From Chitinophagaceae bacterium (GTDB lineage Bacteria; Bacteroidota; Bacteroidia; Chitinophagales; Chitinophagaceae): a stretch of DNA of 64,000 bases. Shown here piece by piece: positions 9,310-38,495 of this stretch. The notes under the pieces were generated by a model. It had not been told where the DNA came from. It searched no databases and saw only the letters and a list, made by a program, of their open reading frames with translations. Numbering within the stretch: the first letter of the stretch is position 1; every line of letters begins with the position of its first letter. The stretch is taken from assembly GCA_947374225.1 (NCBI GenBank), contig CANCAY010000002.1, positions 62,001 through 126,000 of the forward strand, given 5' to 3'. Made by a program: the position numbers and the translations under genes.

Positions 9310-9337
9310 TTCACATTGGCGTAACAATTTGGTAACA
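9310..9337 (+). promoter_or_regulatory. Pho-box-like element A (three hexamers, 11-bp period)
   Basis: Hexamers TTCACA (9310), GTAACA (9321) and GTAACA (9332) repeat at exactly 11 bp, the period of PhoB/PhoP boxes. The 17-mer GTAACAATTTGGTAACA also shares its spacer with elements B, C and D elsewhere in the window. A -7-like element starts 8 nt downstream at 9346, the geometry of a class II activator that replaces the -33 region. It faces the TonB receptor gene. Confidence 0.7.
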
Positions 9338-9345
9338 TTAGAATC

Positions 9346-9354
9346 TAATCTTTG
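9346..9354 (+). promoter_or_regulatory. -7-like promoter element of the TonB receptor gene
   Basis: TAATCTTTG, one base longer than the Bacteroidota consensus TAnnTTTG, lies 8 nt after the Pho-box-like element A. It would give a leader of about 14 nt before the GTG start at 9376. No TTTG -33 element is seen, consistent with an activator-dependent promoter. Confidence 0.5.
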
Positions 9355-9375
9355 CGGTATAAATAAAAACATATC

Positions 9376-12135
9376 GTGAAAAGGATATCATTACTAATAA
9401 TCGTCATTTTTTCTGCAGTCTTTGCTCAAGCTCAAAAAGCTAAATTATCGGGCAAGATAACTAATAATAAAAACGAGTCTTTAATTGGCGTTTCTATCAT
9501 ATTGAAATCAGACAGAAGTCAGGCAACAAAATCAGATATCGAAGGTCGTTATAGCTTCAATATAGATGTAAATAAGGAATACACTATTACTGCAACATAT
9601 GTGGGCTATAAGGAAAGAATAATTGCAAAAATCATTGCAACAAAAGCAGGCGAAGAAATAAACAATGATATCTTATTAGAAGAAGCCGGCAAAAAATTAA
9701 CGGATGTAGTTGTTTCTGCTTCTCGTAGTTCTAATAAAGGAGAATCAGTAAATGCCTTAATTGCATACCAAAAAAATACAAATACAGTAGCTTCAGTAAT
9801 TTCATCAGAAGCCATTAAAAGAAGTCCAGATAGAAATACAGCAGAAATTTTAAAAAGAACGCCTGGTGCATCTATCCAAGAAGGAAAATATATTGTAGTT
9901 AGAGGTTTAGCCGATAGATACAATCAAGCTATGTTGAATGGTATTTTATTAACAAGCACTGAGCCGGATAGAAAGACATTCTCATTCGATTTATTCCCTG
10001 CTCAAATTATTGACAATATTATTATAAACAAAGCATTCGTTCCTGAATTGCCAGGTGAGTGGGCAGGAGGATTGATTCAAGTAAATACAAAAGACATTCC
10101 TAATAAAAATTTCTTTAACGTTCAAGTTTCAACAAGCTATAATACCATTTCTACAGGAAAAGATTTTTATAAAGACAAGGGTGGAAAAACAGATTGGTTA
10201 GGAATTGATGATGGTGCAAGATCTTTACCAGCAGGATATACTACTAAATCAAATTTTGATACTTCTAGTATTGCAATGAAAACTGCTTTAGGTAAAAAAA
10301 TGTCTAATAACTGGACTCCTGCAAAGACAACTGCTTCTCCTAATTATGCGGTACAAATGAATGGTGGTTTTTCGGGTTTATTATTTGGGAAGAAAATTGG
10401 CGGTATGTTAGGCGCTAACTTTGCAAAAAATCAACGTTTCCAAGACAACCTAAATCAACAAAATACATTAGAGAATAATAAGTTTTCTACTATATATAAG
10501 TATGCTGACGAAAAGTATATTCAAGACATTAACATGGGCGCTATTGCAGGTTTGTCTATGTATTTAAATCCATTGAATAAGATAAGTTATAAAGCTATTT
10601 TGAATGTTAAATCTAACAATTCTTATACTTCAAGAACTGGTAATGAATATTCAAGAGGTGACTTAATGAAGGCAAACGAATTTACATTTGCTCAAAATAC
10701 TTTCTTCACGAATCAATTAAGTGGAGAGCATGGGTTAACAAAAGCATTGAAGTTCAATTGGTATGGCGCTTTCAATATTTTAGACAGTTATAGTCCAGAC
10801 CAAAGGAGAATTCTTTATACTAAGAGTGCTACAGGAACAGATCCTTATGTACTAAATATCTCAAACTCTTTATCTCAACAATCAGGTAGTAGAATTTATC
10901 AAAACTTAAGTGATTATATCTATACGGCTGGTGGTGACTTGACTTTCAAAATAAAGCAACAAACTATCAAAGCGGGTTATATATTACAAATTAAGGATCG
11001 TTTATACGACGCGAAATTATTTGCGAATTTCTTACCAAAGGACAATGTTGCTTTAAGATCATTAACTCCTGACGTTGTGTTTGCTCCTGAAAATTTCGGA
11101 AACGGAACAGACAATAAATTTGGATTTGATGCTATTAAAGGTAGAAACTTTAGATACTTAGCTAATACTATTTTAAATGCTGGGTATATTCAGTTTGATA
11201 ATAAAGTATCTGAAAAATTAAGAGCAGTTTGGGGTCTACGTGTTGAGGACTATGACCAATTAGTAGGTAGTGTGAAAAAATGGGATCCAAGATTCACAAA
11301 TACAAGAGTTACTGACTTCTTGCCAGGTGTAAATACTACTTATAAAGTTAACCAAACAAGTAACTTAAGAGTTACTGCGTCTCAAACTGTAATCAGACCA
11401 GAATTAAGAGAATTGTCTTTCTTAAATATATTTGACTTTGAATTAAATGCGTCTGTTCAAGGTAATCCAACTTTGAAGAGAACTAAGATTACGAATACTG
11501 ATATTAGATATGAAATTTATCCAAGCTCTGGTGAAGTATTCACTGCAGGAGTATTCTATAAAGATTTCGTAAATCCAATCGAGCAAATATTTAGCGAAGG
11601 GTCTGGTGGTTCTAGTACTTTTTCTTTCCAAAATGCTAAAAAAGCAATCACTTATGGATTAGAATTAGAGGCAAGAAAAAAATTAAATAAATATTTCACT
11701 TTCCAGGCAAATGCTTCTTTAATTAATAGTAAGATAAAGGATGACAATTTGAAGTTAAACAGACAATTACAAGGTCAATCCCCTTACTTAGTGAACTTAG
11801 GACTTTTATATGATGTTGCTGAAAAAGGTTTTAATGCAACATTATTGTTCAACCAAATTGGAGAAAGAATTTACTTAGTGGGTGATATGCAAGCTGGATC
11901 TGCTTCCCCAGATATTTATGAAGCTCCAAGGTCATTAATTGACTTCCAAATGAGTAAAAAAATAATGAAAAATAAGGCAGAAATCAAATTAACAATTGCT
12001 GACTTATTAAACAAAGAACAAACTTTCTACCAGAATTTAACAACCAATCCTAAATACGAGAAAGGTGTTGACGTGGTTCGTTTTGCAAGAAAATTCGGGT
12101 CTACATTTGGAGTGTCATTCAACTATTCTTTATAA
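9376..12135 (+). CDS. TonB-dependent outer-membrane receptor with CarboxypepD-like N-terminal domain
   Basis: 919 residues, GTG start followed by a signal peptide (about 20 residues, ending AQA). A CarboxypepD_reg beta-sandwich occupies about 22-105 (SGKITNNKNESLIGVSI), a plug domain about 130-240 (EILKRTPGASIQEGKYIVVRG), and a beta-barrel the rest, ending in FGVSFNYSL with a terminal hydrophobic residue. It transports a substrate across the outer membrane using TonB energy. The beta-helix lipoprotein gene starts 41 bp downstream, likely a surface partner. The Pho-box-like element A and the phosphonate operon that follows suggest a phosphorus compound; that is inference. Confidence 0.88.
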   Translation: MKRISLLIIVIFSAVFAQAQKAKLSGKITNNKNESLIGVSIILKSDRSQATKSDIEGRYSFNIDVNKEYTITATYVGYKERIIAKIIATKAGEEINNDILLEEAGKKLTDVVVSASRSSNKGESVNALIAYQKNTNTVASVISSEAIKRSPDRNTAEILKRTPGASIQEGKYIVVRGLADRYNQAMLNGILLTSTEPDRKTFSFDLFPAQIIDNIIINKAFVPELPGEWAGGLIQVNTKDIPNKNFFNVQVSTSYNTISTGKDFYKDKGGKTDWLGIDDGARSLPAGYTTKSNFDTSSIAMKTALGKKMSNNWTPAKTTASPNYAVQMNGGFSGLLFGKKIGGMLGANFAKNQRFQDNLNQQNTLENNKFSTIYKYADEKYIQDINMGAIAGLSMYLNPLNKISYKAILNVKSNNSYTSRTGNEYSRGDLMKANEFTFAQNTFFTNQLSGEHGLTKALKFNWYGAFNILDSYSPDQRRILYTKSATGTDPYVLNISNSLSQQSGSRIYQNLSDYIYTAGGDLTFKIKQQTIKAGYILQIKDRLYDAKLFANFLPKDNVALRSLTPDVVFAPENFGNGTDNKFGFDAIKGRNFRYLANTILNAGYIQFDNKVSEKLRAVWGLRVEDYDQLVGSVKKWDPRFTNTRVTDFLPGVNTTYKVNQTSNLRVTASQTVIRPELRELSFLNIFDFELNASVQGNPTLKRTKITNTDIRYEIYPSSGEVFTAGVFYKDFVNPIEQIFSEGSGGSSTFSFQNAKKAITYGLELEARKKLNKYFTFQANASLINSKIKDDNLKLNRQLQGQSPYLVNLGLLYDVAEKGFNATLLFNQIGERIYLVGDMQAGSASPDIYEAPRSLIDFQMSKKIMKNKAEIKLTIADLLNKEQTFYQNLTTNPKYEKGVDVVRFARKFGSTFGVSFNYSL

Positions 12136-12176
12136 TCCTTAATCAATAAATTAAACTTTTTTTAAATACAAAAACA

Positions 12177-13682
12177 ATGAAACAATTATTTATTTTATCG
12201 TTAGCTTTTTTAGCCGTAACCGGTTGTAGAAAGATTGAAACCGATGGCCAAAAAGAAATCGTAATAGTAAACCAACCAGTTATCCCAACAGGACCAACTG
12301 CAAATACTATCACATTATCAGGTAGAATTACAAAGGATACTACTTTGTATGCAAAAGATTACAACTACTTGTCTGGATTAGTTTATATCACTAAGGGTGT
12401 AACATTAACAGTTGAAGCGGGTGCTAAAGTAATGGGTAAGTACTCAGGATCGGATGTTTCTGCTTTGATAGTTTGTAGAGGTGCTAAAATAATTGCAAAA
12501 GGTACAGTTGATAATCCTATTGTTTTTACTTCAGCATCTGCTAACCCACAATCAGGTGACTGGGGTGGAATCGTACTTTGCGGTATAGCTCCAATTAATA
12601 CAAGTTTTACTGTGAATGGCGCTGCTGTTCAAGGTTTATACCAAGTAGAAGGTGGTGTTGATAATGCAAATGGTGACGGTTTAGCTGGTGCAGGTGATGC
12701 AGCTTTCCCAACTGTAAATGCAGCAGACAATTCAGGTATCATTTCTTATGTAAGAATTGAGTATGCTGGATATGCTTACCAACCAGATAAAGAAATCAAT
12801 AGTTTAACAATGGCTGCTGTAGGTAGCGGTACACAAATCGACCACGTAGAAGCTGCGTTTGGAAAAGATGATAGTTTTGAGTGGTTTGGTGGTACTGTAA
12901 ACTGTAAATATATCATTGCATATAAAGGTCAAGATGATGACTTTGATACAGACAATGGATATAGTGGTTTTGTTCAGTTTGGTATTGGATTACGTGATTC
13001 TTTAATTGCTGACATTTCTAAGTCAGAAGCATTTGAATCAGATAATAACGCAACAGGTACAACTGCAACTCCAAAAACTACAGCTGTGTTCTCTAACATG
13101 ACAGCAATTGGACCAAGAGCTACATTAGCAAACGTGGGTAATAGCTTATTTTTAGCTGGCGCTCAAATTAGAAGAAACTCTGGAATATCTATCGAAAACT
13201 CAGTATTCATGGGATGGCCTACAGGTTTATTAATTGATGCTGGTTTAGGTTCACCAACCGACAAAAATATTGATGACAGTACAATCCGTTTTAAGAACAA
13301 TACTTTTGCAGGTAATACTGTAAATACTAAATATACTGCAAGTACAAGTGCTGCAACTGGAGCTAATGATGCAAGTATCTTAGCTTGGGTTTCTACTGCA
13401 GCTTTTGGCAACACAGCTACAGTAAATGCAGTCGATGCTAAATTGATCCAACCATTTAACTATACTTCATTTGACCCAACTCCATACGCTGGTACAGCTT
13501 CTCCTTTAGCTGCTAACTTAACTTTTGGAGTAGCTGCAAACTACAACTATGCAAGTAATGGTTCATTCACAGATTCTAAATTACAGAACGCTTTTATTAA
13601 GCCTGTAACATTTAGAGGTGCAATTGGATTGAATGGCGAAGACGCTACATGGTGGAAAGGATGGACAAGATGGAATTACTAG
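12177..13682 (+). CDS. surface lipoprotein with right-handed beta-helix-like body
   Basis: 501 residues. Residues 1-17 are a lipoprotein signal with lipobox LAVTGC (Cys17). The body has repeated Gly/Asn/Thr-rich strands such as GVTLTVEAGAKVMG, GAKIIAKGTVDNPIVFTS and GDWGGIVLCG, a pattern seen in parallel beta-helix surface proteins of Bacteroidota. The C-terminus (GEDATWWKGWTRWNY) is aromatic. It probably caps or feeds the adjacent TonB receptor as an alternative to SusD; no enzyme active site is evident. A perfect palindromic terminator ends the two-gene unit. Confidence 0.7.
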   Translation: MKQLFILSLAFLAVTGCRKIETDGQKEIVIVNQPVIPTGPTANTITLSGRITKDTTLYAKDYNYLSGLVYITKGVTLTVEAGAKVMGKYSGSDVSALIVCRGAKIIAKGTVDNPIVFTSASANPQSGDWGGIVLCGIAPINTSFTVNGAAVQGLYQVEGGVDNANGDGLAGAGDAAFPTVNAADNSGIISYVRIEYAGYAYQPDKEINSLTMAAVGSGTQIDHVEAAFGKDDSFEWFGGTVNCKYIIAYKGQDDDFDTDNGYSGFVQFGIGLRDSLIADISKSEAFESDNNATGTTATPKTTAVFSNMTAIGPRATLANVGNSLFLAGAQIRRNSGISIENSVFMGWPTGLLIDAGLGSPTDKNIDDSTIRFKNNTFAGNTVNTKYTASTSAATGANDASILAWVSTAAFGNTATVNAVDAKLIQPFNYTSFDPTPYAGTASPLAANLTFGVAANYNYASNGSFTDSKLQNAFIKPVTFRGAIGLNGEDATWWKGWTRWNY

Positions 13683-13702
13683 TCTAATTAAGATATAATG
13701 AT

Positions 13703-13731
13703 AAAACGTCCCGAAATTTCGGGACGTTTTT
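13703..13731. terminator. palindromic terminator after the beta-helix lipoprotein
   Basis: A perfect 28-bp palindrome (AAAACGTCCCGAAA at 13703-13716 and its complement at 13717-13730) forms a GC-core stem flanked by A- and T-runs, so it could work on both strands. It separates the receptor/lipoprotein pair from the cytochrome lipoprotein gene, so that gene needs its own promoter or read-through. Confidence 0.85.
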
Positions 13732-13748
13732 GGTAAAATTATAATTGT

Positions 13749-14105
13749 ATGAAATTTATAGAAAGTAACATTTTAAAATTTTGCTGTTTAGCAATCTTTG
13801 GAACTATACTTATTGCAAGTTGTTCTAAACAATCAAGTGCAACAATTCCTGCATCAAGTACTTGTGACCCCAATATTAGTTTTATAAATACTGTAAAACC
13901 AATTTTAGATAGAGATTGCAATAATGCTGGTTGTCATGATGATAAAGTAATTACAGCTTTAAATATTTATCAAACAGTTCATGACGGGGCAGCGCAAATA
14001 AGATTGTCTATTTCAACTGGCAAAATGCCTAAAAATGGAACTATTTCTGTTGCAGATAAAAATGCAATTTTTTGTTGGATTGATAATGGAGCAAAAAACA
14101 ATTAA
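13749..14105 (+). CDS. small c-type cytochrome lipoprotein (CX4CH heme motif)
   Basis: 118 residues. A lipoprotein signal ends at Cys25 (LIASC). Cys57, Cys62 and His63 form a CX4CH motif in DCNNAGCHDD, an expanded heme-c site found in many planctomycete/Bacteroidota-type single-heme domains. Met93 in TGKMPKNG is the likely second axial ligand. It would be a periplasm-facing or surface-anchored electron carrier. Its position between the phosphonate uptake genes and the oxidative phosphonate operon is notable, but no redox partner is identified. An ATG lies 18 bp after the terminator palindrome; promoter not recognised. Confidence 0.75.
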   Translation: MKFIESNILKFCCLAIFGTILIASCSKQSSATIPASSTCDPNISFINTVKPILDRDCNNAGCHDDKVITALNIYQTVHDGAAQIRLSISTGKMPKNGTISVADKNAIFCWIDNGAKNN

Positions 14106-14116
14106 AATACTAGCAC

Positions 14117-14144
14117 TTAACTATTTGGTTACAATTAGGTAACT
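14117..14144 (+). promoter_or_regulatory. Pho-box-like element B upstream of the phosphonate operon
   Basis: Hexamers TTAACT (14117), GTTACA (14128) and GTAACT (14139) repeat at 11 bp; the 17-mer GTTACAATTAGGTAACT matches elements A, C and D. Eleven bases downstream is TCGTTTTG (14156-14163), one mismatch from TAnnTTTG, which lies in the left arm of the terminator at 14153. Transcripts starting here would lack an intact hairpin. Confidence 0.68.
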
Positions 14145-14152
14145 ATTTCATC

Positions 14153-14185
14153 ATGTCGTTTTGCTATTAGTAAAACGACATTTTT
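14153..14185 (+). terminator. terminator between cytochrome gene and phosphonate operon
   Basis: A 10-bp stem (ATGTCGTTTT at 14153-14162, AAAACGACAT at 14172-14181) with a 9-nt loop is followed by TTTTG. It lies between the cytochrome gene stop at 14105 and the DUF5690 start at 14238, and its left arm overlaps the presumed -7 element driven by element B. Confidence 0.75.
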
Positions 14186-14237
14186 GTAGGTTTGACTTAC
14201 AAATATTTATTAGTATTTAATAGTATTTGTATTCAAA

Positions 14238-15512
14238 ATGATTCCAGTTAATTATAATTATAAGAGCGTATTAACCTCTATCTATACTGCATTAATCTGT
14301 TTTTTAACTTATGCTTGCGTTTATGCATTTAGGAAACCATTTACCATTGGACTATATTCAAATCAGCCATTATTTTTAGGAGTTGATTTCAAAAACTGCC
14401 TAGTAATTAGTCAAGTGCTTGGCTATACGTTTAGTAAGTTTTATGGTGTTAAATATATTTCAGAACTAAAAAAAATAGGCAGGGGAAAAGCTATTATTAT
14501 TTTGCTTTTTTTGTCCTGGATACCACTGTTTCTGTTTCCTTTAATTCCGGCGCCGCTTAACATTTTTTGTTTATTTTTAAATGGTTTGCCATTAGGTATT
14601 ATTTGGGGCATTGTTTTTTCATTTGCCGAAGGACGAAGAGGTACGGATTTTATTGGTGCTACATTAGCTGTTAGCTTTATTGTATCGTCAGGATTTGTTA
14701 AATCCGTGGCAAAATGGTTGCAGTTGAGTTTTCAATTAAATGAAATGTGGTTGCCTTTTTACACTGGTCTTTTATTCATTTTACCAGTAATATGCTTGGT
14801 TTTTTTATTAGATAGAATAGCACCTCCAAATAAGGATGAAGTTGAATTAAAATCTATAAGACTTCCTATGACAGGAATGGAAAGGAAATCATTTTTCATC
14901 AGGTTTAAATTTGGACTTATTGCTTTCATTTTTATTTATACTATTCTGACCTTGTTCAGAGATATTAGAGATAATTTTGCTGCTGATATTTGGAAAGACT
15001 TGGGATTTGTAAATAATGCCTCCATTTTTACTAGTACAGAACTTACAATTGCAGTAATTGTATTAATACTTATTGCAAGTATGATTTTTATCAAAAACAA
15101 TAACACTGTATTTATTATTAGCCAATGTTTAATTATTCTTGGATTTATATTGGCAGGTGTTTGTACCTATTTGTTTCAACAACATTTTATATCAGGTTTT
15201 AACTGGATGTTACTTGTTGGCTTAGGGCTATATATGGGGTATATTCCATATAATTCAATATTGTTCGATAGAATGATTGCAACTTTTAGATTAAAGGGGA
15301 ATGTTGGTTACTTTATGTATATGATGGATTCATTTGGGTATTTAGCTTCTGTATTAGTGATTAGTTTTAAGGGTGCATCGCATATTAAAATGAATTGGCT
15401 TTCGTTTTATGGGAATGGTGTTTTATTGTTTTCCATTTTCGGCGCTATATTATCAATCATTACTTTGATATATTTTATTAATAAAAGCAAACAAATTGTA
15501 ATTTATGAGTAG
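14238..15512 (+). CDS. DUF5690-family MFS-like permease, candidate phosphonate/organophosphate importer
   Basis: 424 residues, about twelve membrane segments. The N-terminal LTYACVYAFRKPFTIGLY resembles the start of organophosphate:phosphate antiporters (GlpT/UhpT/UhpC type), and FNGLPLGIIWGIVFSFAEGRRGTDFIG (near residue 115-140) fits a conserved MFS cytoplasmic loop. I recognise it as the Bacteroidota DUF5690 family, uncharacterised. Its stop overlaps the oxidase start by 8 bp, so it is the first gene of the tight five-gene operon. No PhnCDE ABC importer is present, making it the best inner-membrane entry candidate for aminophosphonates; this is inference from context. Confidence 0.75.
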   Translation: MIPVNYNYKSVLTSIYTALICFLTYACVYAFRKPFTIGLYSNQPLFLGVDFKNCLVISQVLGYTFSKFYGVKYISELKKIGRGKAIIILLFLSWIPLFLFPLIPAPLNIFCLFLNGLPLGIIWGIVFSFAEGRRGTDFIGATLAVSFIVSSGFVKSVAKWLQLSFQLNEMWLPFYTGLLFILPVICLVFLLDRIAPPNKDEVELKSIRLPMTGMERKSFFIRFKFGLIAFIFIYTILTLFRDIRDNFAADIWKDLGFVNNASIFTSTELTIAVIVLILIASMIFIKNNNTVFIISQCLIILGFILAGVCTYLFQQHFISGFNWMLLVGLGLYMGYIPYNSILFDRMIATFRLKGNVGYFMYMMDSFGYLASVLVISFKGASHIKMNWLSFYGNGVLLFSIFGAILSIITLIYFINKSKQIVIYE

Positions 15513-16632
15513 TAAAACTGCAATAGTAGTTGGTGCTGGAATCCTTGGCATGGCTACTGCAAGGGCATTAGCTTTGAAAGGATATAAGGTTACAGTATTT
15601 GAACGCTCTTTACAGTCCGTTGGGGCATCAATAAGAAATTTTGGGATGATCTGGCCAATAGGGCAGCCAGATGGTAAATTATATGAAAGAGCAATTAAGT
15701 CAAGAGAGGTCTGGAAAGAATTTCTTACTGCGTCTAAGATTGGCTTTGATACTTGCGGTAGCGTTCATTTGGCATATAATGTTGAGGAACAAAATGTTAT
15801 AGAGGAGTTATATGAGCATTTTTTAAAAAATAATAGGCCCGTAAGTATTTTAGGCGCAAGTGAGATTCAGGCTAAGTACAATGGCATCGTAAATGAAAAT
15901 TTAATTGGGGGCTTGTATAGTAATGACGAAGTAATTATTGATCCTAGAGAAGGGATTAAAAATTTACCAGCCTATTTGAATACTTATTATAATGTAGATT
16001 TCAAATGGGGTACCGCTATTACTAATGTATGTACCAATACTGTTTGGTCTTTTAAAACTAAATACAATGCAGATATTGTTTGTATTTGTAGTGGAGCAGA
16101 TTTCGAACATTTATATCCATATATATTTAAAGAACAGCCTATTATAAAAACCAAGCTACAAATGATGCGATTTACATCAAATAATCCTCATTATAGAATC
16201 GGAACATCAATCTGTGGAGGTTTGTCACTATTGCATTACAAAAGTTTCACTGCATCTAAGTCTTTAGACATTTTAAAAGCCAAGATAGAAAGTGAAATGC
16301 CTGAATATATAAAGCATGGTATACATGTAATGGTTTCACAAAATAACAAAGGGGAATTAACAATTGGTGATACGCACGAATATGCACTTGACTTTGATCC
16401 TTTCGACAACATGGATCTAAATAAATTGGTACTTGATTACCTTAAAAAAATGATGCATATTGAAGACTGGACAATGCAGCAAAGCTGGAATGGAGTATAT
16501 CCTAAAATGACTAATGGAGCAACAGATTTATTTTTAAAAGTAGAACCTGGAGTATATATTATTAATGGAATTGGCGGCAATGGCATGACTTTGTCTTTTG
16601 GATTTGCCGAAGAAGCCGTAGAAAAAATTTAA
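15505..16632 (+). CDS. FAD-dependent aminophosphonate oxidase, TIGR03364 type
   Basis: 375 residues of the DAO/glycine-oxidase fold. A Rossmann FAD motif (GAGILGMATARALALKG) starts at residue 9, and GASIRNFGMIWPIGQPDG near residue 40 is the hallmark I associate with TIGR03364. Members cluster with phosphonatase-like hydrolases, and related flavoenzymes of such clusters (Pbf type) oxidatively deaminate 2-aminoethylphosphonate or its N-alkyl derivatives to phosphonoacetaldehyde. Here the HAD partner is two genes downstream. The C-terminal GIGGNGMTLSFGFAEEA closes the FAD site. Gap to the next gene is 3 bp. Exact substrate is not decidable by eye. Confidence 0.85.
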   Translation: MSSKTAIVVGAGILGMATARALALKGYKVTVFERSLQSVGASIRNFGMIWPIGQPDGKLYERAIKSREVWKEFLTASKIGFDTCGSVHLAYNVEEQNVIEELYEHFLKNNRPVSILGASEIQAKYNGIVNENLIGGLYSNDEVIIDPREGIKNLPAYLNTYYNVDFKWGTAITNVCTNTVWSFKTKYNADIVCICSGADFEHLYPYIFKEQPIIKTKLQMMRFTSNNPHYRIGTSICGGLSLLHYKSFTASKSLDILKAKIESEMPEYIKHGIHVMVSQNNKGELTIGDTHEYALDFDPFDNMDLNKLVLDYLKKMMHIEDWTMQQSWNGVYPKMTNGATDLFLKVEPGVYIINGIGGNGMTLSFGFAEEAVEKI

Positions 16633-16635
16633 ATT

Positions 16636-17190
16636 ATGGAAAACAATATTGTTAAAACTATTATTGATTTATTTAATAATAAAGGGGGTGACTTATATGG
16701 TGGAGAAGCGGTAACGCAATTAGAACATGGCCTTCAAGCGGCCCATTTTGCAGTATTAGAAAATGCATCAGATGCACTTGTTGCTGCTGCACTTTTACAT
16801 GATATTGGACACTTACTTCATGACTTGCCAGACGACGCAACGGATAAAGGAATAGACGATTTACACGAAGCATTAGGGGCACAATTTTTAGAAAAATATT
16901 TTATAAATGAAGTTGCCGAACCTGTAAAATTACATGTTAATGCAAAAAGATATTTATGTTTAATTGAAGCAGGGTATTATAGTACTTTATCGCCAGCTTC
17001 TCAAGCTAGTTTAATATTGCAAGGTGGAATTATGTCAAGCCTGGAAAAGGGAGATTTCGAAAAAAATGAATTTTATATGGAAGCAGTAATGCTGAGAAGA
17101 TGGGATGATTTAGCAAAAGATCCAGAATTAAAAACTGAGCCAATTGAGTGTTACACGAATATTTTAACAGCTGCTTTAAAAAATAACTAA
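16636..17190 (+). CDS. phnZ: PhnZ-type HD-domain diiron oxygenase (C-P bond cleavage)
   Basis: 184 residues. PhnZ cleaves (R)-1-hydroxy-2-aminoethylphosphonate to glycine and phosphate using a mixed-valent diiron site. All the expected residues are visible: the Tyr21/Glu24 lid pair (YGGE), His31, His55-Asp56 in LLHDIGH, His77, His100, Lys104 and a late Asp in RRWDD, with spacing equal or nearly equal to characterised PhnZ. It belongs to the phosphonate-associated HDIG group (TIGR03276). The usual partner PhnY, which makes the hydroxylated substrate, is not in the window, so OH-AEP may be imported directly or made elsewhere. Confidence 0.85.
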   Translation: MENNIVKTIIDLFNNKGGDLYGGEAVTQLEHGLQAAHFAVLENASDALVAAALLHDIGHLLHDLPDDATDKGIDDLHEALGAQFLEKYFINEVAEPVKLHVNAKRYLCLIEAGYYSTLSPASQASLILQGGIMSSLEKGDFEKNEFYMEAVMLRRWDDLAKDPELKTEPIECYTNILTAALKNN

Positions 17191-17192
17191 TT

Positions 17193-17879
17193 ATGAAAAT
17201 TTCAATGATCGTTTTTGATATGGCAGGTACCACAATTAACGAGGATAATATTGTCTATAAGACACTTTGTAGTGCTATTCAAGCAGAGGGAGTTAAAGTA
17301 ACTTTAGAGGATGTATTAACTTATGGTGCAGGGAAAGAAAAATTGAATGCCATTCAAGATATTGTTAATTTTTTCGGTACTAAAGAACAAGAATCCTTAG
17401 CAAATAAAATATTTGAATCCTTCTTGATAAACTTAAAACTAGCATATTCAATTGCAGATATTAAAGGAATGCAGCATGCAGAAGAGGTTCTTGTGAGTTT
17501 AAGAAGTCAAAACATACTTGTTGTCTTAAATACAGGTTATGATAGAGTTACTGCAAATTCACTCTTAGATAAAATTGGGTGGAAGCAAACCTATCATTAT
17601 GATTTATTAGTTACAGCAACTGATGTAACTAATAGTAGGCCGGCTCCTGACATGATTACACATGCCATGAATTTATTTTCTATTGATAATCCTAAATTAG
17701 TAATCAAAGTGGGAGATTCTAAAATAGATATAGAAGAAGGTAGAAACGCAAAATGTTTATATAGTATTGGTGTCACAACTGGCGCGCACACTACTAGTCA
17801 ATTGTCAGAAGCAAATCCCGATTTTGTTATTAACAGCTTAGCAGAATTATTGCCAATAATTAAGAATATTAAAAATTAA
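17193..17879 (+). CDS. phosphonatase-like HAD hydrolase (PhnX-like, TIGR03351 type)
   Basis: 228 residues. The first HAD motif reads DMAGTT (Asp9), the DxAGT form special to phosphonatases. A cap-domain lysine (Lys50 in GAGKEKLNAI) is the candidate Schiff-base residue, Arg replaces the usual Lys in NSRPAPDM, and VGDSKIDIEEG is the metal-binding motif. Phosphonatase splits phosphonoacetaldehyde into acetaldehyde and phosphate. TIGR03351 members occur with FAD oxidases rather than the PhnW transaminase, exactly as here. The start is 2 bp after the phnZ stop. Confidence 0.87.
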   Translation: MKISMIVFDMAGTTINEDNIVYKTLCSAIQAEGVKVTLEDVLTYGAGKEKLNAIQDIVNFFGTKEQESLANKIFESFLINLKLAYSIADIKGMQHAEEVLVSLRSQNILVVLNTGYDRVTANSLLDKIGWKQTYHYDLLVTATDVTNSRPAPDMITHAMNLFSIDNPKLVIKVGDSKIDIEEGRNAKCLYSIGVTTGAHTTSQLSEANPDFVINSLAELLPIIKNIKN

Positions 17880-17883
17880 CAAG

Positions 17884-18321
17884 ATGAGTGATTATATTAT
17901 TCGAAACGCTACAGAAGGAGATGTAAACTATTTTTTCGAATCCATACAGCTTACTTATAATACAAAATTAGATAGTGTTGTATTTTATGAAAAATATAAA
18001 ACTCTTCTAAAAAATAAAAATTCATTAATTTTTGTAGCAACTAATAACCTTCAAAATATAGTAGGTAGTATTATTTGTGAGAAAAAATATAATTTAGTAG
18101 ACGATAGTGGTTGCATTTTGATTAAAGAATTTTACATAACCCCTAAGTATAGAAAATTAAACATCGCAGACAAGCTTTATGAGTCATTAGAAAAAAAAGC
18201 TACTAGTTTGTCTATTTATAAATTTGAAGTGTTGTGTAATATAAATGCTACTACAACACAAGGTTTTTATATGAGAAAAAAATTTAAATCGGAAAAGAAA
18301 TTGTATGCTAAAATATTTTAG
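17884..18321 (+). CDS. GNAT acetyltransferase, PhnO-like
   Basis: 145 residues, last gene of the phosphonate operon (4 bp gap). The core IKEFYITPKYRKLNIADKL (about residues 79-97) and FYMRKKF (about 129-135) are GNAT motifs A and B and line up without gaps with my recollection of E. coli PhnO, the 144-residue aminoalkylphosphonate N-acetyltransferase. PhnO acetylates aminophosphonates for detoxification or downstream use. Context strongly favours that role; sequence similarity alone is modest, and some other amine could be the acceptor. Confidence 0.65.
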   Translation: MSDYIIRNATEGDVNYFFESIQLTYNTKLDSVVFYEKYKTLLKNKNSLIFVATNNLQNIVGSIICEKKYNLVDDSGCILIKEFYITPKYRKLNIADKLYESLEKKATSLSIYKFEVLCNINATTTQGFYMRKKFKSEKKLYAKIF

Positions 18322-18330
18322 CGTATAATT

Positions 18331-19212: not shown

Positions 19213-19219
19213 TTTAAAA

Positions 19220-21292: not shown

Positions 21293-21338
21293 TAATTATC
21301 AGCACTAAATTAACTTTTTCAAGGTATTAAAAATTTAA

Positions 21339-21377
21339 GTAATAATATGTTAATAATTCGATAACAATGAGGTAATA
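21339..21377 (+). promoter_or_regulatory. Pho-box-like element C (four hexamers, 11-bp period)
   Basis: Hexamers GTAATA (21339), TTAATA (21350), ATAACA (21361) and GTAATA (21372) repeat exactly every 11 bp, the longest array in the window. The 17-mer ATAACAATGAGGTAATA matches elements A, B and D. A degenerate -7 element TAATCTTCT starts 15 nt downstream at 21393. Its orientation points to the metallophosphatase at 21422, though the divergent ppk1 could share the site. Confidence 0.68.
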
Positions 21378-21421: not shown

Positions 21422-22264
21422 ATGGAAAAGCGCAAAATGGAAATTTGTGTTATTAGTGACATTCATTTAGGAACTTTCGGATGTCATGCTAAAGAGGTAC
21501 TAAATTATTTAAGAAGTATTAATCCTACTACGTTAATTCTAAATGGGGATATCATTGATATTTGGCAATTTAGCAAACGATTTTTCCCGGCTAGCCATAT
21601 GGCAGTTATCAAGGAGATTTTTAACATGGCAAGTAAGGGTACAAAAGTTATTTATATCACTGGGAATCACGACGAAGCTATGCGCAAGTATGCTGACTTT
21701 GAGATGGGTAATATATTTTTAACAGATAAAATTGTTTTTGAAATAAATGGGGAGAAAAACTGGGTATTCCACGGGGATGTATTTGATAGAACAACAAAAG
21801 GAAGTGCTAAGATTTTGGCTAAATTGGGTGGATATGGCTATGACTTATTAATCTTATTGAATAGTTTATCTAATTGGATTAGAAAATTAATGGGTAAAGA
21901 AAAGATGAGCTTCAGCAAAAAAGTGAAAAATGGGGTTAAAAAAGCAGTTTCTTGGATTGGAGACTTTGAGCAAACAGCAGCAGAATTGGCCATTGAAAAT
22001 GGATACCAGTATGTGATTTGTGGTCATATACATCAACCACAACAAAGAGTAGTTACAACAGAAAAAGGAAGTGTTACTTATTTAAATAGCGGTGATTGGA
22101 TAGAAAATCTTACAGCCTTAGAATATGTTAATCATGCGTGGCATTTATACCAATATGATGCTAAAAATTTCGAACATGTTTCATCAGAAAAAATTAAAAT
22201 TGTTCATTTAAACAATGAATTGAATGTTTTAACTGACGCTGTTGCATTTCAAGTTTCTTTTTAA
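21422..22264 (+). CDS. PlcP-like / UDP-2,3-diacylglucosamine pyrophosphatase-family metallophosphatase
   Basis: 280 residues. Calcineurin-like dimetal motifs are complete: SDIHLG (Asp13, His15), NGDIIDIW (Asp43), GNHDE (Asn82, His83), FHGD (His117) and CGHIHQP (His202, His204). The order SDIHLGTFGCHAKE, then GDIIDIWQ, then a long helix pair (about 125-180) resembles PlcP, the phospholipase C that strips phosphate head groups from phospholipids during phosphorus starvation in other bacteria; LpxH-like enzymes share the fold. The Pho-box-like element and the glycosyltransferase overlapping its stop by one base favour the PlcP role. Substrate not proven. Confidence 0.7.
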   Translation: MEKRKMEICVISDIHLGTFGCHAKEVLNYLRSINPTTLILNGDIIDIWQFSKRFFPASHMAVIKEIFNMASKGTKVIYITGNHDEAMRKYADFEMGNIFLTDKIVFEINGEKNWVFHGDVFDRTTKGSAKILAKLGGYGYDLLILLNSLSNWIRKLMGKEKMSFSKKVKNGVKKAVSWIGDFEQTAAELAIENGYQYVICGHIHQPQQRVVTTEKGSVTYLNSGDWIENLTALEYVNHAWHLYQYDAKNFEHVSSEKIKIVHLNNELNVLTDAVAFQVSF

Positions 22265-23250
22265 TGAAAATATTTTACGCAATTCAAGGTACCGGTAATG
22301 GCCATTTAAGTAGGGCTGTACAGCTGTATCCATATTTACAAAAATATGGAACGGTTGATTTTTTCTTGAGTGGCTCGAACTCCCAACTTAATAATTCAAT
22401 ACCAATAAAGTTTAAAAGCAAGGGGGTAAGTTTATTCTATAAGCAAACTGGGGGGTTGGATTATATGAAAATTCTTAAATCCTTGTCTTTAAATTTATAC
22501 AAAGAGGCGAAGAATTTGCCAGTTGAGAATTACGACTTGGTGATTAACGATTTTGAATTCGTTTCTTCATTAGCATGTTCAATAAAAAAAGTGCCCTGTG
22601 TTCAATTTGGACATCAAGCAAGTTTTCAAAGCAAGCATACCCCAAGATCAAAATCTTTAAATCCAATTGGGAATTTAATTTTAGAAAATTTTGTAAAAAG
22701 CGAATCCTATTTAGGACTTCATTTTAATGCGTATGATACTAATATCTATAATCCTATTATTAAAGATGAAATTATAGCTGCTCAACCCATTAATGACGGG
22801 CATGTGACCGTGTATTTACCACAGTACTCAATACATTTTTTAGAACCTTATTTATTAGCAAAAAGAATTTTTCACTTTGAGGTTTTCACTAAAGAGGTTA
22901 ATAGAATTATTTGTAAAAACAATATCACTTATTACCCTATAAATAACAACCAGTTTTCGAACAGTATGGTTAGGTCATATGGAATAATTACCGCAGGTGG
23001 CTTTGAAACACCAGCAGAAGCTATGTATATGAATAAGAAAGTGCTTAGCATTCCAATAAAAAATCATTTTGAGCAAGCCTGCAATGCGTTTGCTTTAGAG
23101 CAGCTTGGCATCAAAGTATTGAAAAATATAGACAAAGACTTTAGTGCGCATTTCGATAATTGGGTAAATAGCTATAATGCAATTAAACTTGACTTAAAAC
23201 ATTCGACAGCAGAAATAGTTGAAATACTAATGAAACAAACAAAAAAATAA
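22264..23250 (+). CDS. GT-B glycosyltransferase (Glyco_trans_1_3/MurG-like), candidate diacylglycerol glycosyltransferase
   Basis: 328 residues, GT-B fold. The N-terminal loop QGTGNGHLSRAVQL fits the MurG/UgtP-type GxGxxH acceptor-binding loop, and the C-terminal IITAGGFETPAEAMYMNKKVLSIP near residue 240 is the sugar-nucleotide-binding motif (GG-x-T/S-x2-E). No signal peptide or membrane span. The ATG overlaps the metallophosphatase stop, so translation is coupled. Together the two could turn phospholipid into diacylglycerol and then a glycolipid; this reading is inference from family fold, order and the upstream element. Confidence 0.7.
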   Translation: MKIFYAIQGTGNGHLSRAVQLYPYLQKYGTVDFFLSGSNSQLNNSIPIKFKSKGVSLFYKQTGGLDYMKILKSLSLNLYKEAKNLPVENYDLVINDFEFVSSLACSIKKVPCVQFGHQASFQSKHTPRSKSLNPIGNLILENFVKSESYLGLHFNAYDTNIYNPIIKDEIIAAQPINDGHVTVYLPQYSIHFLEPYLLAKRIFHFEVFTKEVNRIICKNNITYYPINNNQFSNSMVRSYGIITAGGFETPAEAMYMNKKVLSIPIKNHFEQACNAFALEQLGIKVLKNIDKDFSAHFDNWVNSYNAIKLDLKHSTAEIVEILMKQTKK

Positions 23251-25947: not shown

Positions 25948-25948
25948 A

Positions 25949-26785: not shown

Positions 26786-26786
26786 T

Positions 26787-27767: not shown

Positions 27768-27771
27768 ATTA

Positions 27772-30401: not shown

Positions 30402-30409
30402 TTATAATT

Positions 30410-30417
30410 TAACTTTG
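30410..30417 (+). promoter_or_regulatory. -7 element of the ribE-ribBA-ribH operon
   Basis: TAACTTTG matches TAnnTTTG, giving a leader of about 20 nt before the ribE ATG at 30446. That leaves no room for an FMN riboswitch. The element lies 8 nt outside the divergent ribD start codon. Confidence 0.55.
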
Positions 30418-30445
30418 CATTTCAAAATTACTTACTTAGAAGCAT

Positions 30446-32246: not shown

Positions 32247-32656
32247 TTGCCATAGTAAAAGCCACATTTAACAGCCATATCACAGACTTATTAGAAGCTA
32301 GCTGTGTTGACTATCTATTAGAACAAAATAGTCAATTTCAGGTTTTTGAGTGCCCTGGTGCTATTGAAACAGTTGTTTATAGCAAAAATTTATTAATGAC
32401 TAATAAGTATAAGTCAATTATAGTTATAGGAGCGATTATAAAAGGAGACACAGATCATTATGAATACGTATGTCAATATGTAACGCAGGGTATAAGTTAT
32501 TTATCTGCTACAAATACTACACCTATTATATTTGGAGTACTTACAACGCAAAATGAAGAACTAGCTTACGAAAGAGCTGCTATAGACAGAATGAATAAAG
32601 GTAAAGAATTTGCGGAAACTGCGTTATTTATGATAAATGCAATAAGTAATTTATAA
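32243..32656 (+). CDS. ribH: 6,7-dimethyl-8-ribityllumazine synthase
   Basis: 137 residues, a little short for the family (about 150). FNSHITDLLEAS at the N-terminus and VIGAIIKGDTDHYEYV near 73 (substrate-binding His) fit lumazine synthase. Completes the ribE-ribBA-ribH operon, so with ribD the whole pathway is in 3.4 kb. The 3' end overlaps the convergent TonB receptor gene by 6 bp. Confidence 0.93.
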   Translation: MIAIVKATFNSHITDLLEASCVDYLLEQNSQFQVFECPGAIETVVYSKNLLMTNKYKSIIVIGAIIKGDTDHYEYVCQYVTQGISYLSATNTTPIIFGVLTTQNEELAYERAAIDRMNKGKEFAETALFMINAISNL

Positions 32657-34687: not shown

Positions 34688-34764
34688 TTATATCTTTACT
34701 TTCATTAATATTCCGCCAATAATATCGTCGCTAATAATATTGTAGTATATAGGGTAGTTGGATT

Positions 34765-37488
34765 TTATTGTCCTTTGTTTTTATAATGCTTTTCTTTTTG
34801 ATCCTCTTCGTCGTCCATTTTAGGTCCCTGCTTTACCTTTCTCCAATCAATATTATAATTATATTTCTTCATGGCTTTACCCCAGTCAAAAACTGATTTG
34901 TCGGGGAATACAAAATCGTATTTAGAAAAATCAGGCTTATTGGTGAAAAAATCGGTTAATAAGGAAGCAGTTTGGTCATATTGATTTACATAAGGAATAC
35001 CTAAAATGTTATACATCACTTTAAGAATAGAACCAAAATTGGCATGCGTGTTTGAAACGTAGTCTTTTTTTACATAAGGACCTGCCATCATTAAAATACT
35101 TCTATGTGCGTCTATATGGTCAACGCCACCTTGTGGATCGTCTTCGGTAACAATCACTAACATGTCTTTCCAGTATGGAGTTCTACTTAAAAAATGCAAC
35201 ATTCTGCCAAGTGCTAAATCATTGTCTGCCATATAAGAATGTCGGAAGGGATAACCGTCCTCTGGTCTTGTGTCTGCACCATGGTCATTGGGTAGCATTA
35301 CTGTTAATAATTGCGGTAAACTATCTTTGCCGTTCAGCCATTTTTGTGTGAACTCTTGTTCAAATTGTTTCATTCTATATTGATCAGGAATATTGGTATT
35401 AAATCCTGCATAATTATGTGAAGTGTTTGACCACACTGCTTTTTGCATTGGAACCATTACAATATGACTAGCGCCTGTAGCAGTATCCATCCACTCTTCT
35501 CTTACATGTGCTGTTTCGTTGGCTTGTCCAAAATTATAAAAGGAGATATTATTTCTTTCTAATGCCTCCCAAAGTCCACCAGTTTCTGCATAATCTTCTG
35601 GGTCCATACTACCTGTGGAGCCGGGGAACCTTCTACCAGGGGCTGTTGAAAAGTAGTCTGCTGTTTTACCAACACTTGAATTGGCTTCTACCCATTCGTT
35701 TGGAATTACGCCCATCATCCAGTGGTGGCCATGAATAGAAGCGTCACTATCGCAATAAAAATTATCACTTAATGAAAACTGCTTAGCAATTTTATGATGA
35801 TTTGGACTCACATTGACGTTTTTCAAGGATGTGGTTTTATTGGAAACATTTACACCAATTCCAAATCTTGCCAATCCTGAATCTCCTTTAAGATTTGTTT
35901 TTTGACCAAAGACTTCATCAAATGTTCTATTCTCTTTTGAAATAAAAACTATATGTTTAATTGGAGTTGAAATGCTTTTAGGTAAGATAGGCATAGGTAA
36001 ACTATCCTGATCTTTAATTTCAATTTTAGTATAGGTATTCGTAATTGACTGTGATGTGAATTGAGCTAACTCATTACTAGTTGGCATTTTTACTTTCTGA
36101 AAAGTAGCCAATTGTATATCTCCAATATAAGTGCCTTGAATTGGAATCCTAAAATTCTTTCCGCCATTAGGACCAGCACCATAGCCTCTGCAAGAAGTTA
36201 TATAAATTTCTGTTTCATCTTTTGAAAGTGCTACTCTTGTTGGCCCCCAGCCTGCTGGCAATAGTCCTATTGTTTTGTCAGTGTTTAAATCAATAATAGC
36301 GACGGCGTTAAAACCTAGTAATGCAATGTATAATTTTTTCTCATCTTTACTTAATGTGATACCAAAAGGTAGTAGGCCTCTTAGTTTATCTAAAGCTGCG
36401 TCTACTTTAATAGGTATAGTTTTAATTATTTTGCCTGCTTTATAATCTATTACAGAAACATTATCATTTGTAGCATTAGTAACATAAGCGAACTCAGAAC
36501 CAATGGCAATAGAGTTTGGACTTGAGCCTCCAACAACTTCCATATCCTCTATCATTTCACCCAGTTTCAAGCCAGTTTTTAATTTAGAAATTACTTGATT
36601 TGTTTTTAAGTCAATGGCAAACACACTCATTGATTCATCAGCATTAGGACTACCTAATCCGGGTATTACTTTTCCTTCTACAATACTACCATTAATTGAT
36701 TCTTTTGTATTGTTACCATAAGGATGCCATGGTATATATTGTGATTGTATATTTTCTTTTGTAGTTCCAGCTACTAATGGATAATCATACATGCCAACAT
36801 TGGCAACTAACACTGTGCCATGGTCCGGAGAAATAGCTAGGCCAAAAGGTTGACGGCCTGTTGGAATTGATGCTTTAATTTTTTTAGAAGCAAGGTCAAT
36901 TCTTACTAACCTAAAATTGCCTCTATCTAAAACTAGTAATTCATTTTCAGCTTCGTTGAATAATAAATCACTTGTAAAGCTACCTTCAAACAATTGGTTA
37001 TTAAATTTTCCATCTAATGATATTTTTTCAATAGTTTTTAAATTTACATAATCGTAAACTATTACGGTACCATTGTCGCCTCCACTTAAGAAAACATAAT
37101 TTAAACTAGGATGGAAAGCCACTCCTAAAAATGAACCGTCTTTTAATGGCGATTCAATTTTCTTTTGATAGTCAGGAACTCGAACGGTACCTAAATCATT
37201 CAAATGTATAATTGTAAATACACCATTATGTAATGTGATAGCTACTTTACCATTTGGCGAAATAGCCAATCCAAAAGGATCGTTTGTTATTTTTACAGTT
37301 TGGCCTATCGGAGTCACATATCGTCCACTTGGCAAAACAGAAATACCTGAAGTATTGATGGTTGCATATTGATCATAACCAGGCACTGACAAGTAGCTTT
37401 TATTTTGCTGAGAAAATATCGGGCTACTTAAAGTCAGCATAATTATTGACATTAACGAAATCGACTTATTTAATAAACTAGGTTTCAT
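34765..37488 (-). CDS. bifunctional YncE-type beta-propeller / phosphoesterase (alkaline phosphatase-like) protein
   Basis: 907 residues, exported (signal peptide about 26, ending FSQ). Residues 50-470 carry repeated YVTN/YncE-like blades (GLAISPNGKVAITLHNG, FGLAISPDHGTVLVANVG, PTRVALSKDETEIYITS). Residues 510-880 form a phosphoesterase domain of the PF04185 type: SKENRTFDEVFGQ near 517, DASIHGHHWMMG near 583, MLPNDHGAD near 737, and TEDDPQGGVDHIDAHRS near 785, holding the metal and phosphate ligands. It should release phosphate or hydrolyse phospholipid-like substrates outside the inner membrane. A TACGTTTG promoter element lies 20 bp upstream. Confidence 0.88.
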   Translation of the reverse strand: MKPSLLNKSISLMSIIMLTLSSPIFSQQNKSYLSVPGYDQYATINTSGISVLPSGRYVTPIGQTVKITNDPFGLAISPNGKVAITLHNGVFTIIHLNDLGTVRVPDYQKKIESPLKDGSFLGVAFHPSLNYVFLSGGDNGTVIVYDYVNLKTIEKISLDGKFNNQLFEGSFTSDLLFNEAENELLVLDRGNFRLVRIDLASKKIKASIPTGRQPFGLAISPDHGTVLVANVGMYDYPLVAGTTKENIQSQYIPWHPYGNNTKESINGSIVEGKVIPGLGSPNADESMSVFAIDLKTNQVISKLKTGLKLGEMIEDMEVVGGSSPNSIAIGSEFAYVTNATNDNVSVIDYKAGKIIKTIPIKVDAALDKLRGLLPFGITLSKDEKKLYIALLGFNAVAIIDLNTDKTIGLLPAGWGPTRVALSKDETEIYITSCRGYGAGPNGGKNFRIPIQGTYIGDIQLATFQKVKMPTSNELAQFTSQSITNTYTKIEIKDQDSLPMPILPKSISTPIKHIVFISKENRTFDEVFGQKTNLKGDSGLARFGIGVNVSNKTTSLKNVNVSPNHHKIAKQFSLSDNFYCDSDASIHGHHWMMGVIPNEWVEANSSVGKTADYFSTAPGRRFPGSTGSMDPEDYAETGGLWEALERNNISFYNFGQANETAHVREEWMDTATGASHIVMVPMQKAVWSNTSHNYAGFNTNIPDQYRMKQFEQEFTQKWLNGKDSLPQLLTVMLPNDHGADTRPEDGYPFRHSYMADNDLALGRMLHFLSRTPYWKDMLVIVTEDDPQGGVDHIDAHRSILMMAGPYVKKDYVSNTHANFGSILKVMYNILGIPYVNQYDQTASLLTDFFTNKPDFSKYDFVFPDKSVFDWGKAMKKYNYNIDWRKVKQGPKMDDEEDQKEKHYKNKGQ

Positions 37489-37507
37489 ATTGGTTGAAAT
37501 TGAACTA

Positions 37508-37515
37508 CAAACGTA
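37508..37515 (-). promoter_or_regulatory. -7 element of the phosphoesterase-TonB receptor unit
   Basis: On the minus strand TACGTTTG matches TAnnTTTG exactly, about 20 nt before the ATG at 37488. A degenerate relative of the Pho-box-like motif (shared core CAATGAGG, 37531-37547 minus strand) lies 15 nt upstream of it. Confidence 0.5.
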
Positions 37516-37622
37516 TCATTAGCAGTCTATATAGTCCTCATTGCAGAATTATCTAAATGTTAATTTTGCCGCTAACTAAGTAATTATAAATATTATCAAA
37601 TAATTTCCAAATAAATTAGAAA

Positions 37623-38447
37623 ATGAATCTTTATATCCGAATCTGTGTTTTATTGCTCACATTTAGCATTAATGGGTTATTCGCTCAGTCTAGTTTAATA
37701 AACAGACTGGAAAATAAATTTGTTATAATTGCTCATAGAGGCGATCATACAGAAGCTCCTGAAAACACCATTGCTGCTTATCGAAATGCAATTCTGGCTG
37801 GGGTTGATTTTGTCGAAATTGATCTAAGAACCACTAAAGACAGTCAATTGGTAATAATGCATGATGCCAATTTAAATAATATGGCGGGTATTAATGCAAA
37901 AATTTCAGATCTTAATTACGATTCCTTGCGAAACATTAAAATTTTTGCTAAAAACCACTTAGAGTGGGGGTTTTATAGTATTCCAACTTTTGACGAAGTA
38001 CTTTCATTATGTAAGAATAAAATTAATATTTACTTAGATTTTAAAAATGCATCAGCAAAACAAGCTTATAATTTAATTACTAAATATGGAATGGAACAAA
38101 ATGTAGTTGTTTATATTAATTCTCCTCAACAATTAGTTGAATGGAAAAGTGTTGCTCCCAATATGCCATTAATGATTAGTTTGCCTAAGAAAATATCAAC
38201 AGGAATGGAGCTAGAAGTGTTGGTTTCTCAATTTAAGATGGATATTTTAGACGGTGATTATAATGAGTATAATGAAGAAATAGTAATTGCTGCTAAAAAA
38301 ATGCATATCCCAATTTGGGCTGACATTCAAAGCAATGAAGAAGGACCTGTACAATGGGATAAAGCAATTAAGGTTGGCCTACGCGGTCTACAAACGGATC
38401 ATCCCAAAGCAATTATCGATTATTTGAAATTAAATGGTTTAAAGTAA
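37623..38447 (+). CDS. secreted glycerophosphodiester phosphodiesterase
   Basis: 274 residues with a signal peptide of about 21 residues. GDPD motifs: IIAHRGDHTEAPENTIAAY (about 34-52, catalytic His and metal ligands), FVEIDLRTTKDSQLVIMHD (about 64-82, Glu/Asp ligands and second His). It hydrolyses deacylated phospholipid head groups to glycerol-3-phosphate and an alcohol. It is divergent from the phosphoesterase and just upstream of the Pho-box-like element D, which fits a role in organic phosphorus scavenging. Confidence 0.9.
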   Translation: MNLYIRICVLLLTFSINGLFAQSSLINRLENKFVIIAHRGDHTEAPENTIAAYRNAILAGVDFVEIDLRTTKDSQLVIMHDANLNNMAGINAKISDLNYDSLRNIKIFAKNHLEWGFYSIPTFDEVLSLCKNKINIYLDFKNASAKQAYNLITKYGMEQNVVVYINSPQQLVEWKSVAPNMPLMISLPKKISTGMELEVLVSQFKMDILDGDYNEYNEEIVIAAKKMHIPIWADIQSNEEGPVQWDKAIKVGLRGLQTDHPKAIIDYLKLNGLK

Positions 38448-38467
38448 TAGTTTAATTTTAAGGTTTG

Positions 38468-38495
38468 TTAACAATTAGGAAACAATTACATAATA
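38468..38495 (+). promoter_or_regulatory. Pho-box-like element D upstream of susC/susD
   Basis: TTAACA (38468), GAAACA (38479) and the weaker ATAATA (38490) repeat at 11 bp. The 17-mer TTAACAATTAGGAAACA shares the CAATTAGG core with element B. A -7-like TAATACTTTG starts at 38491, 6 nt after the second hexamer, and would give a leader of about 57 nt. Confidence 0.62.

Follow-up and report, generated by a model that had tools for sequence, protein, structure and literature searches.

The PHO box is a pair of 11-nt direct repeats whose core varies by species, and in Escherichia coli each of the two direct-repeat units comprises seven conserved and four less conserved nucleotides, bound head-to-tail (PMC4415409; this and the papers below are cited from parts of their text). 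Within the Bacteroidota, an electrophoretic mobility shift assay showed Bacteroides fragilis PhoB bound to its pst promoter, and pst, ppk and ppx depend on PhoB (PMC3547664). In Flavobacterium johnsoniae, low phosphate induces PhoB, PlcP, a TonB receptor with PF07715, PF13715 and PF14905, and F-type lipoproteins, one of which bears a pectin-lyase-like signature; the phosphate response of the phylum is described there as unlike that of E. coli, with TonB receptors, SusCD pairs and many members without Pst (PMC8115612). Neither of these texts, in the parts available, gives a box sequence or consensus for the two regulons (PMC8115612, PMC3547664), and Pho boxes have been predicted at plcP clusters, with no consensus in that part of the text (PMC4796936); among open-licence PubMed Central papers, none giving a Bacteroidota Pho box consensus was found. 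Here we describe four arrays of 11-bp direct repeats in a 64,000-nt stretch (the window) of the genome of a Chitinophagaceae bacterium (2.46 Mb, 92% complete), which, judging from their sequence, are very probably operators of the two-component phosphate regulator PhoB.

The four 17-mers on which an earlier, sequence-only reading of the window was built are found where it placed them, at 9321, 14128, 21361 and 38468, and hexamer scoring puts in-phase units at 11-bp steps, or one helical turn, at all four sites, as tandem direct repeats of at least two units. All lie on the forward strand. Box A (9299..9337) has four units, TTAATA, TTCACA, GTAACA and GTAACA, at 9299, 9310, 9321 and 9332; box B (14117..14144) has three, TTAACT, GTTACA and GTAACT, at 14117, 14128 and 14139; box C (21339..21377) has four, GTAATA, TTAATA, ATAACA and GTAATA, at 21339, 21350, 21361 and 21372; and box D (38468..38495) has TTAACA at 38468, GAAACA at 38479 and a weaker ATAATA at 38490. 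The unit counts given earlier hold for B, for C and, with two strong units and one weak, for D, whereas box A has four units and not three. With the hexamer matrix, which was derived from the same four sites that it scored, a three-unit array reaches 12 or more in 4 of the 19 intergenic upstream regions of the window; the next best is a weak match at 58809, with a score of 11.2. The claim that the window holds no other good intergenic copy is borne out, as no further match to the 15-mer TAACAATNNGGTAAC (at most two mismatches) was found anywhere in the window.

Across the whole genome, a three-unit pattern that includes the spacers (at most three mismatches) has five placements, all at the four window sites, with none for the control. 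As this pattern was drawn up after the sites had been seen, the independent evidence lies in its absence elsewhere and in conservation among relatives. A three-hexamer pattern lacking the spacer letters (at most three mismatches) was rejected, with 880 matches vs 1573 for its control. The 15-mer TAACAATNNGGTAAC, at up to two mismatches, has 95 matches, 77 within open frames of at least 100 codons and 18 outside. Nine of these 18 fall at seven phosphorus-linked places; the window sites account for six of the placements, and all four are among the seven places, in keeping with the earlier statement that each precedes phosphorus-linked genes. The remaining three are, on contig 17, a box located 72 bp upstream of a DUF47 gene (PF01865) with a PHO4-family transporter gene (PF01384) behind it, on contig 1 a box 58 bp upstream of phoB, and another between phoB and its kinase gene.

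Conservation of the arrays was assessed in the upstream regions of orthologues in relatives, own-genome loci excluded, which were scored at periods of 7 to 16 bp, with significance for each promoter taken from 200 dinucleotide shuffles (p<0.05). At 11 bp the mean three-unit score is 19.2 for promoters of the receptor that follows box A and 14.9 for plcP (at most 5.6 at the other periods, 7-10 and 12-16, in either set), 12.6 for SusC (at most 5.9), 7.4 for DUF47 (at most 4.7) and 6.8 for phoB (at most 5.3). Significant arrays are present in 26/27 plcP, 23/24 receptor, 8/11 SusC, 15/29 DUF47 and 9/27 phoB promoters, counts that stand apart from three loci with only 0-26 upstream bases (L076, L183 and L201) and a receptor locus that is too short (L229). 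Four further loci were scored separately, L077 (plcP, p=0.010), L157 (phoB, p=0.134), L158 (phoB, 97 bases, p=0.005) and L199 (SusC, p=0.055), and with these added the counts become 27/28 for plcP, 10/29 for phoB and 8/12 for SusC. A two-unit box is found at all 27 phoB promoters and at 22 of the 29 DUF47 promoters, and fits none of either set at periods 9, 10, 12, 13 and 15; off-period fits in the DUF47 set number one at 14, two at 16 and one at 17. The phoB promoter would thus be autoregulated, since it carries the two-unit box in the own genome, in 27/27 relatives and in L157 and L158. All seven DUF47 genes without a box are found 1.2-1.5 kb downstream from phoB and in the same orientation, and may therefore share the phoB promoter.

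Arrays within the genus also precede a Porin_O_P gene (G009, four units), a PhyH-type dioxygenase gene (G008) and TonB receptor genes (G034, G025 and G027). An orphan protein of 104 or 105 aa has an array 38 bp upstream in two loci (L251, without a Pfam match, and L256), and a similar site is listed in a third genus genome (G018:C17:2934).

A broader set was formed by the best 80 of 552 confirmed relatives of the receptor, with records from Chitinophaga, Sediminibacterium, Pedobacter, Segetibacter, Flavobacterium and others, many of them metagenome-assembled genomes and some near-duplicates; F. johnsoniae itself is absent from these best 80 of 552 loci. One locus has no upstream sequence, and of the 79 promoters scored 72 carry an array at p<0.05, while 58 score at least 12 at a period of 11 bp and no more than three do so at any of the other periods between 6 and 20. 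By tblastn (E<=1e-8) the same 80 loci hold a PhoB-like regulator in 27 cases, DUF47 in 14, PitA in 14 and PlcP in 11. Their other intergenic upstream regions have an array at 11 bp in 43/476 and at any other period in at most four, and several of the 43 stand, by position, before PhoB-like and PlcP-like genes and genes of the type encoding the 501-aa protein that follows the window receptor. In this set the units follow the consensus [T/G]TAA[C/T]A, after which come a spacer that leans towards T and, last, a G. The sequence-only reading had also held the spacer CAATnnGG to be conserved, which is true within the genus, where the three-unit pattern with spacers has 79 placements in 37 genomes vs 20 for the control, but not beyond it, as a 28-mer containing the spacer gives 5 matches in 23 other genomes of the order vs 6 for the control. 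The spacer therefore appears to be a lineage trait; CAATnnGG was rejected as part of a universal box, positions 7-11 of 174 units from the named promoters only leaning towards T, T and a final G.

The arrays mostly stand at preferred distances from the TTTG of TAnnTTTG, which we take to be the -7 promoter element of Bacteroidota. In the window the register is kept at box A, where the TTTG of a putative -7 element (9351..9354, +) comes 13 nt after the last unit, and at box B, where the TTTG of a TAnnTTTG match, TAGGTTTG (14187..14194, +), comes 46 nt (13+33) past the array. Among the named relatives, 54 of the 65 TTTG present within 60 nt past an array stand at an offset of 2 modulo 11, mainly at 24, 13 and 46 nt, and of the 66 arrays scoring at least 10, 49 are followed by a TTTG at 13, 24, 35 or 46 nt. 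In the genus sets, 21/23 receptor, 6/7 SusC and 3/7 DUF47 promoters are in register. A fixed promoter register would be a requirement of a PhoB-type activator bound on one helix face. It could also be read as the mark of a constitutive upstream element of strong outer-membrane-protein promoters rather than of a regulated operator, an explanation that would suit the several TonB receptors among the targets. Such an element would not be expected before genes for cytoplasmic or inner-membrane proteins, yet phoB, plcP, DUF47-PitA and the phosphonate enzymes all have arrays, and so few of the remaining intergenic upstream regions at the named loci have one that we consider this explanation very unlikely.

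Three units plus TTTG at 13 nt, with at most one mismatch, were then taken as a pattern for 396 genomes of the class Bacteroidia, of which 57 match. With one genome (G084) set aside there are 63 matches in 56 genomes, own-genome site A counted among them, vs 11 for the control. G084 itself has 37 matches, and its ten listed places, on more than one contig, are mostly an 11-bp tandem repeat, GTAATACGATT/GTAATACGGTT. Of 30 loci fetched, 27 were examined (G084, the own site and one duplicate being excluded); three of these sites lie inside an open frame and three have no downstream frame in the locus. Fourteen of the downstream proteins were run against family libraries, several others being judged by eye, and nine of the fourteen are phosphorus- or receptor-type: a PhoB above the NF053854 cut-off (L439), an OmpR-type regulator (L435), two PstS, both above the TIGR02136 cut-off, two Porin_O_P, a PlcP-like protein and two TonB receptors. 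At class level, the mean score of pst upstream regions is 10.35 at 11 bp and does not exceed 7.2 at the other periods scored (6-10 and 12-22); 12/30 have an array scoring about 12 or higher. It is likely that Bacteroidota share one phosphate-promoter code, with at least two [T/G]TAA[C/T]A units, one per 11 bp, and the -7 TTTG at 13+11n nt.

That the arrays are no more than chance similarity in AT-rich DNA, or a dispersed repeat, with an accidental link to phosphorus, is a reading to which the G084 tandem repeat and the lack of genome-wide enrichment of the 15-mer would lend themselves. The specificity for a period of 11, seen in the plcP, receptor, SusC and phoB sets if not in that of DUF5690 (the first gene after box B), the conservation in diverged promoters and the zero control for the own-genome three-unit pattern make it extremely improbable.

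By best model matches below curated cut-offs, the genome encodes PhoB and PhoR: the regulator at C1:46112 is best matched by TIGR02154 PhoB, and is followed by a kinase gene whose product is best matched by PnpS, WalK and PhoR and scores below the cut-offs of those models. Binding to direct repeats with a period near 11 bp is general among OmpR-family regulators, and the genome has four Trans_reg_C proteins, one of which, at C2:43213, has a Bacteroides PhoB model as its best match (178.5 bits). The arrays might accordingly belong to another regulator of this family, for example this second PhoB-like protein on contig 2, with the phosphorus genes only part of its regulon. Against this, the box is kept in 27/27 relatives before the PhoB-type regulator at C1:46112, the one followed by a kinase gene, and the class-wide arrays precede a PhoB above the NF053854 cut-off and two PstS genes; an operator of another OmpR-family regulator is thus improbable. 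PstC has no match in the own genome (92% complete), whereas 138 of 296 genomes of the class have one, and phosphate uptake may here rest on DUF47-PitA.

Several observations weigh against the arrays being PhoB operators. The phoB product lies below the TIGR02154 and NF053854 cut-offs, though these are both its best matches. In the own genome, the 95 matches of TAACAATNNGGTAAC compare with 175 for the reversed control, and the 15-mer was rejected as a stand-alone detector since it is rarer than that control. Boxes do stand upstream of phosphate-acquisition genes, with exceptions, as nine of the 18 loose non-coding copies have no recognised phosphorus gene; these nine comprise one before a GlpR/DeoR-family regulator gene on contig 26 (PF00455; GlpR model below cut-off) and eight at unidentified or unrelated genes, including those for Hsp20 and MFS proteins. 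Likewise, five of the 14 library-run proteins of the class-wide search comprise one thioredoxin-like protein and four that match no family, and in 10/30 pst regions a score of 12 is also attained at one or more of 14 other periods. The two-unit phoB pattern fits some of the 27 promoters off-period (three at period 8, seven at 14 and one at 16), and the DUF47 three-unit score is nearly equal on the reverse strand (7.1 vs 7.4). The register fails at site C, while at D a TTTG lies 12 nt and a TAnnTTTG 57 nt from GAAACA, and only 9/26 plcP and 0/4 phoB promoters of the genus sets are in register. DUF5690 promoters show no preference for 11 bp (2.5 at both 11 and 13 bp), with an array in 2/28. Finally, orthologues and near-duplicate genomes are not independent. 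As a separate observation, the contig 26 regulator gene (own genome C26:12708; L397:3746-4522), of the DeoR/GlpR family, lies upstream of a SusC-like gene and carries the two-unit box GTAACA-N5-TTAACA, and a similar-looking regulator in a relative (G014, L233) has a three-unit box.

The DUF5690 case deserves closer attention. Conservation of site B directly before DUF5690 was rejected (2/28 orthologues), and the site is conserved by cluster, not by gene, with the boxes of relatives preceding other genes of the cluster. Five such clusters were opened, arrays scoring at least 14 being displayed. In G015 an array precedes the phosphodiesterase-type gene that heads the phosphonate genes; in G017 one precedes the HD gene and one SusC; and in G011 one precedes SusC. 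In G030 and G010, DUF5690 comes after SusC-SusD, whose promoters have arrays of 13.8 and 13.2 (p 0.005 and 0.015). Cluster order may explain these five cases, not all 28, which also counts against the operator reading.

Taking the evidence together, the proposal that the motif is the Pho box of this lineage and defines a regulon is supported, with arrays before plcP, TonB receptor, phoB, SusC, phosphonate and phosphate porin genes. The scan of the genome and its relatives, suggested along with it as a check, came out in its favour, with copies at phoB and DUF47-PitA and, in distant genomes, at pstS or pst operons. If the arrays are PhoB operators, phosphate limitation would lead the kinase to phosphorylate PhoB, whose monomers would line up head to tail along one side of the helix, each on an 11-bp unit, across the upstream part of the promoter. 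From there they would bring RNA polymerase, carrying the Bacteroidota sigma factor, to the -7 element. Boxes A, B and D would then switch on the uptake and degradation of organic phosphate and phosphonate, box C the replacement of phospholipids, and the DUF47-PitA box the import of phosphate in a genome without detected PstC, while the box at phoB would provide positive feedback on phoB itself.

The genes behind the boxes are all on the forward strand. The putative target of box A is a TonB-dependent receptor (9376..12135; PF14905, PF13715, PF07715), and is followed by a strand-rich 501-aa protein without a Pfam match (12177..13682), a homologue of which is present in 73 of the 80 named loci (E<=1e-8). 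The structural model of this protein (pLDDT, the predicted local distance difference test, 74) has weak beta-helix matches only, with low TM-scores, the best Foldseek E value being 2.4e-3 and none below 0.001; it perhaps resembles the beta-helix F-type lipoproteins of the Flavobacterium phosphate response. Box B is followed by the DUF5690 protein (14238..15512; PF18943, 490 bits) and by phosphonate-degradation-type genes (15505..18321) for an FAD oxidoreductase, above the TIGR03364 cut-off, an HD-domain oxygenase (PhnZ/TmpB-like; TIGR03276) and a HAD phosphonatase-like protein (TIGR03351), both just below their cut-offs, and a GNAT protein. An intrinsic-terminator-like hairpin (13 pairs, T tail; 14153-14181) lies between box B and TAGGTTTG, and box B may therefore be located where the upstream receptor operon ends; a sigma-70 scan of 13700-14400 gave 2 promoter-like sites vs 4.8 in shuffles.

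Box C has as its putative target a metallophosphoesterase (21422..22264; PF12850 and PF00149, with LpxH-type models below cut-off), followed by a glycosyltransferase (22264..23250; PF13528, with the MJ1255/VC2487 family model below cut-off). This neighbourhood is like the PlcP lipid-remodelling clusters in the available part of PMC4796936, and by neighbourhood and analogy the metallophosphoesterase is probably PlcP. Divergent from it are ppk and an exopolyphosphatase gene (18331-21292, reverse strand), box C lying inside the common gap. The putative target of box D is a SusC-like TonB-linked outer membrane protein (38564..41815), above the TIGR04056 cut-off, with a SusD-like lipoprotein (41856..43442; PF12771) after it and a GDPD gene immediately upstream of the pair. 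Near box D and adjoining the GDPD gene, a 907-aa protein with a beta-propeller and a phosphoesterase is encoded on the reverse strand (34765-37488), relatives of which are found beside the SusC-DUF5690 clusters of G030 (66% identity) and G010 (31%).

Bacteroidota consume organic phosphorus in large amounts in soils, plant roots and waters. With the operator and promoter layout defined, regulon predictions can be put to the test throughout the phylum. Such a layout also links DUF5690, the 501-aa protein and the 104-aa orphan to phosphorus, and if the phylum-wide code is true, raw sequence would suffice to trace the phosphate regulon, uncharacterised outer-membrane and lipid-remodelling genes included.

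Set beside the described systems, the element is of a known kind, while its phylum consensus and promoter register were not found in the open literature searched. The unit bound by Bacillus subtilis PhoP is TTAACA-like at 11 bp, a point on which no paper was found in the open literature; the B. subtilis box belongs to another phylum, with another promoter type and other targets, and homology between its sites and the arrays described here is not claimed. The core of the E. coli PHO box is CTGTCAT and the box is coupled to a -10 hexamer, whereas here the unit is [T/G]TAA[C/T]A, repeated from two to about five times, and is coupled to the Bacteroidota-type -7 element, with the consensus TAnnTTTG. 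The arrays are nonetheless like the E. coli PHO box in being 11-nt direct repeats in front of phosphorus genes, and the PHO box of B. subtilis PhoP is likewise made of direct repeats with similar features (PMC4415409). Within the phylum, the regulon of B. fragilis has PstSCAB, ppk and ppx as its targets (PMC3547664), and that of F. johnsoniae shares several kinds of target with the window and its relatives, namely a TonB receptor with an F-type lipoprotein, PlcP and PhoB, with the window receptor and the low-phosphate-induced Fjoh_0545 having the same three Pfam domains (PMC8115612).

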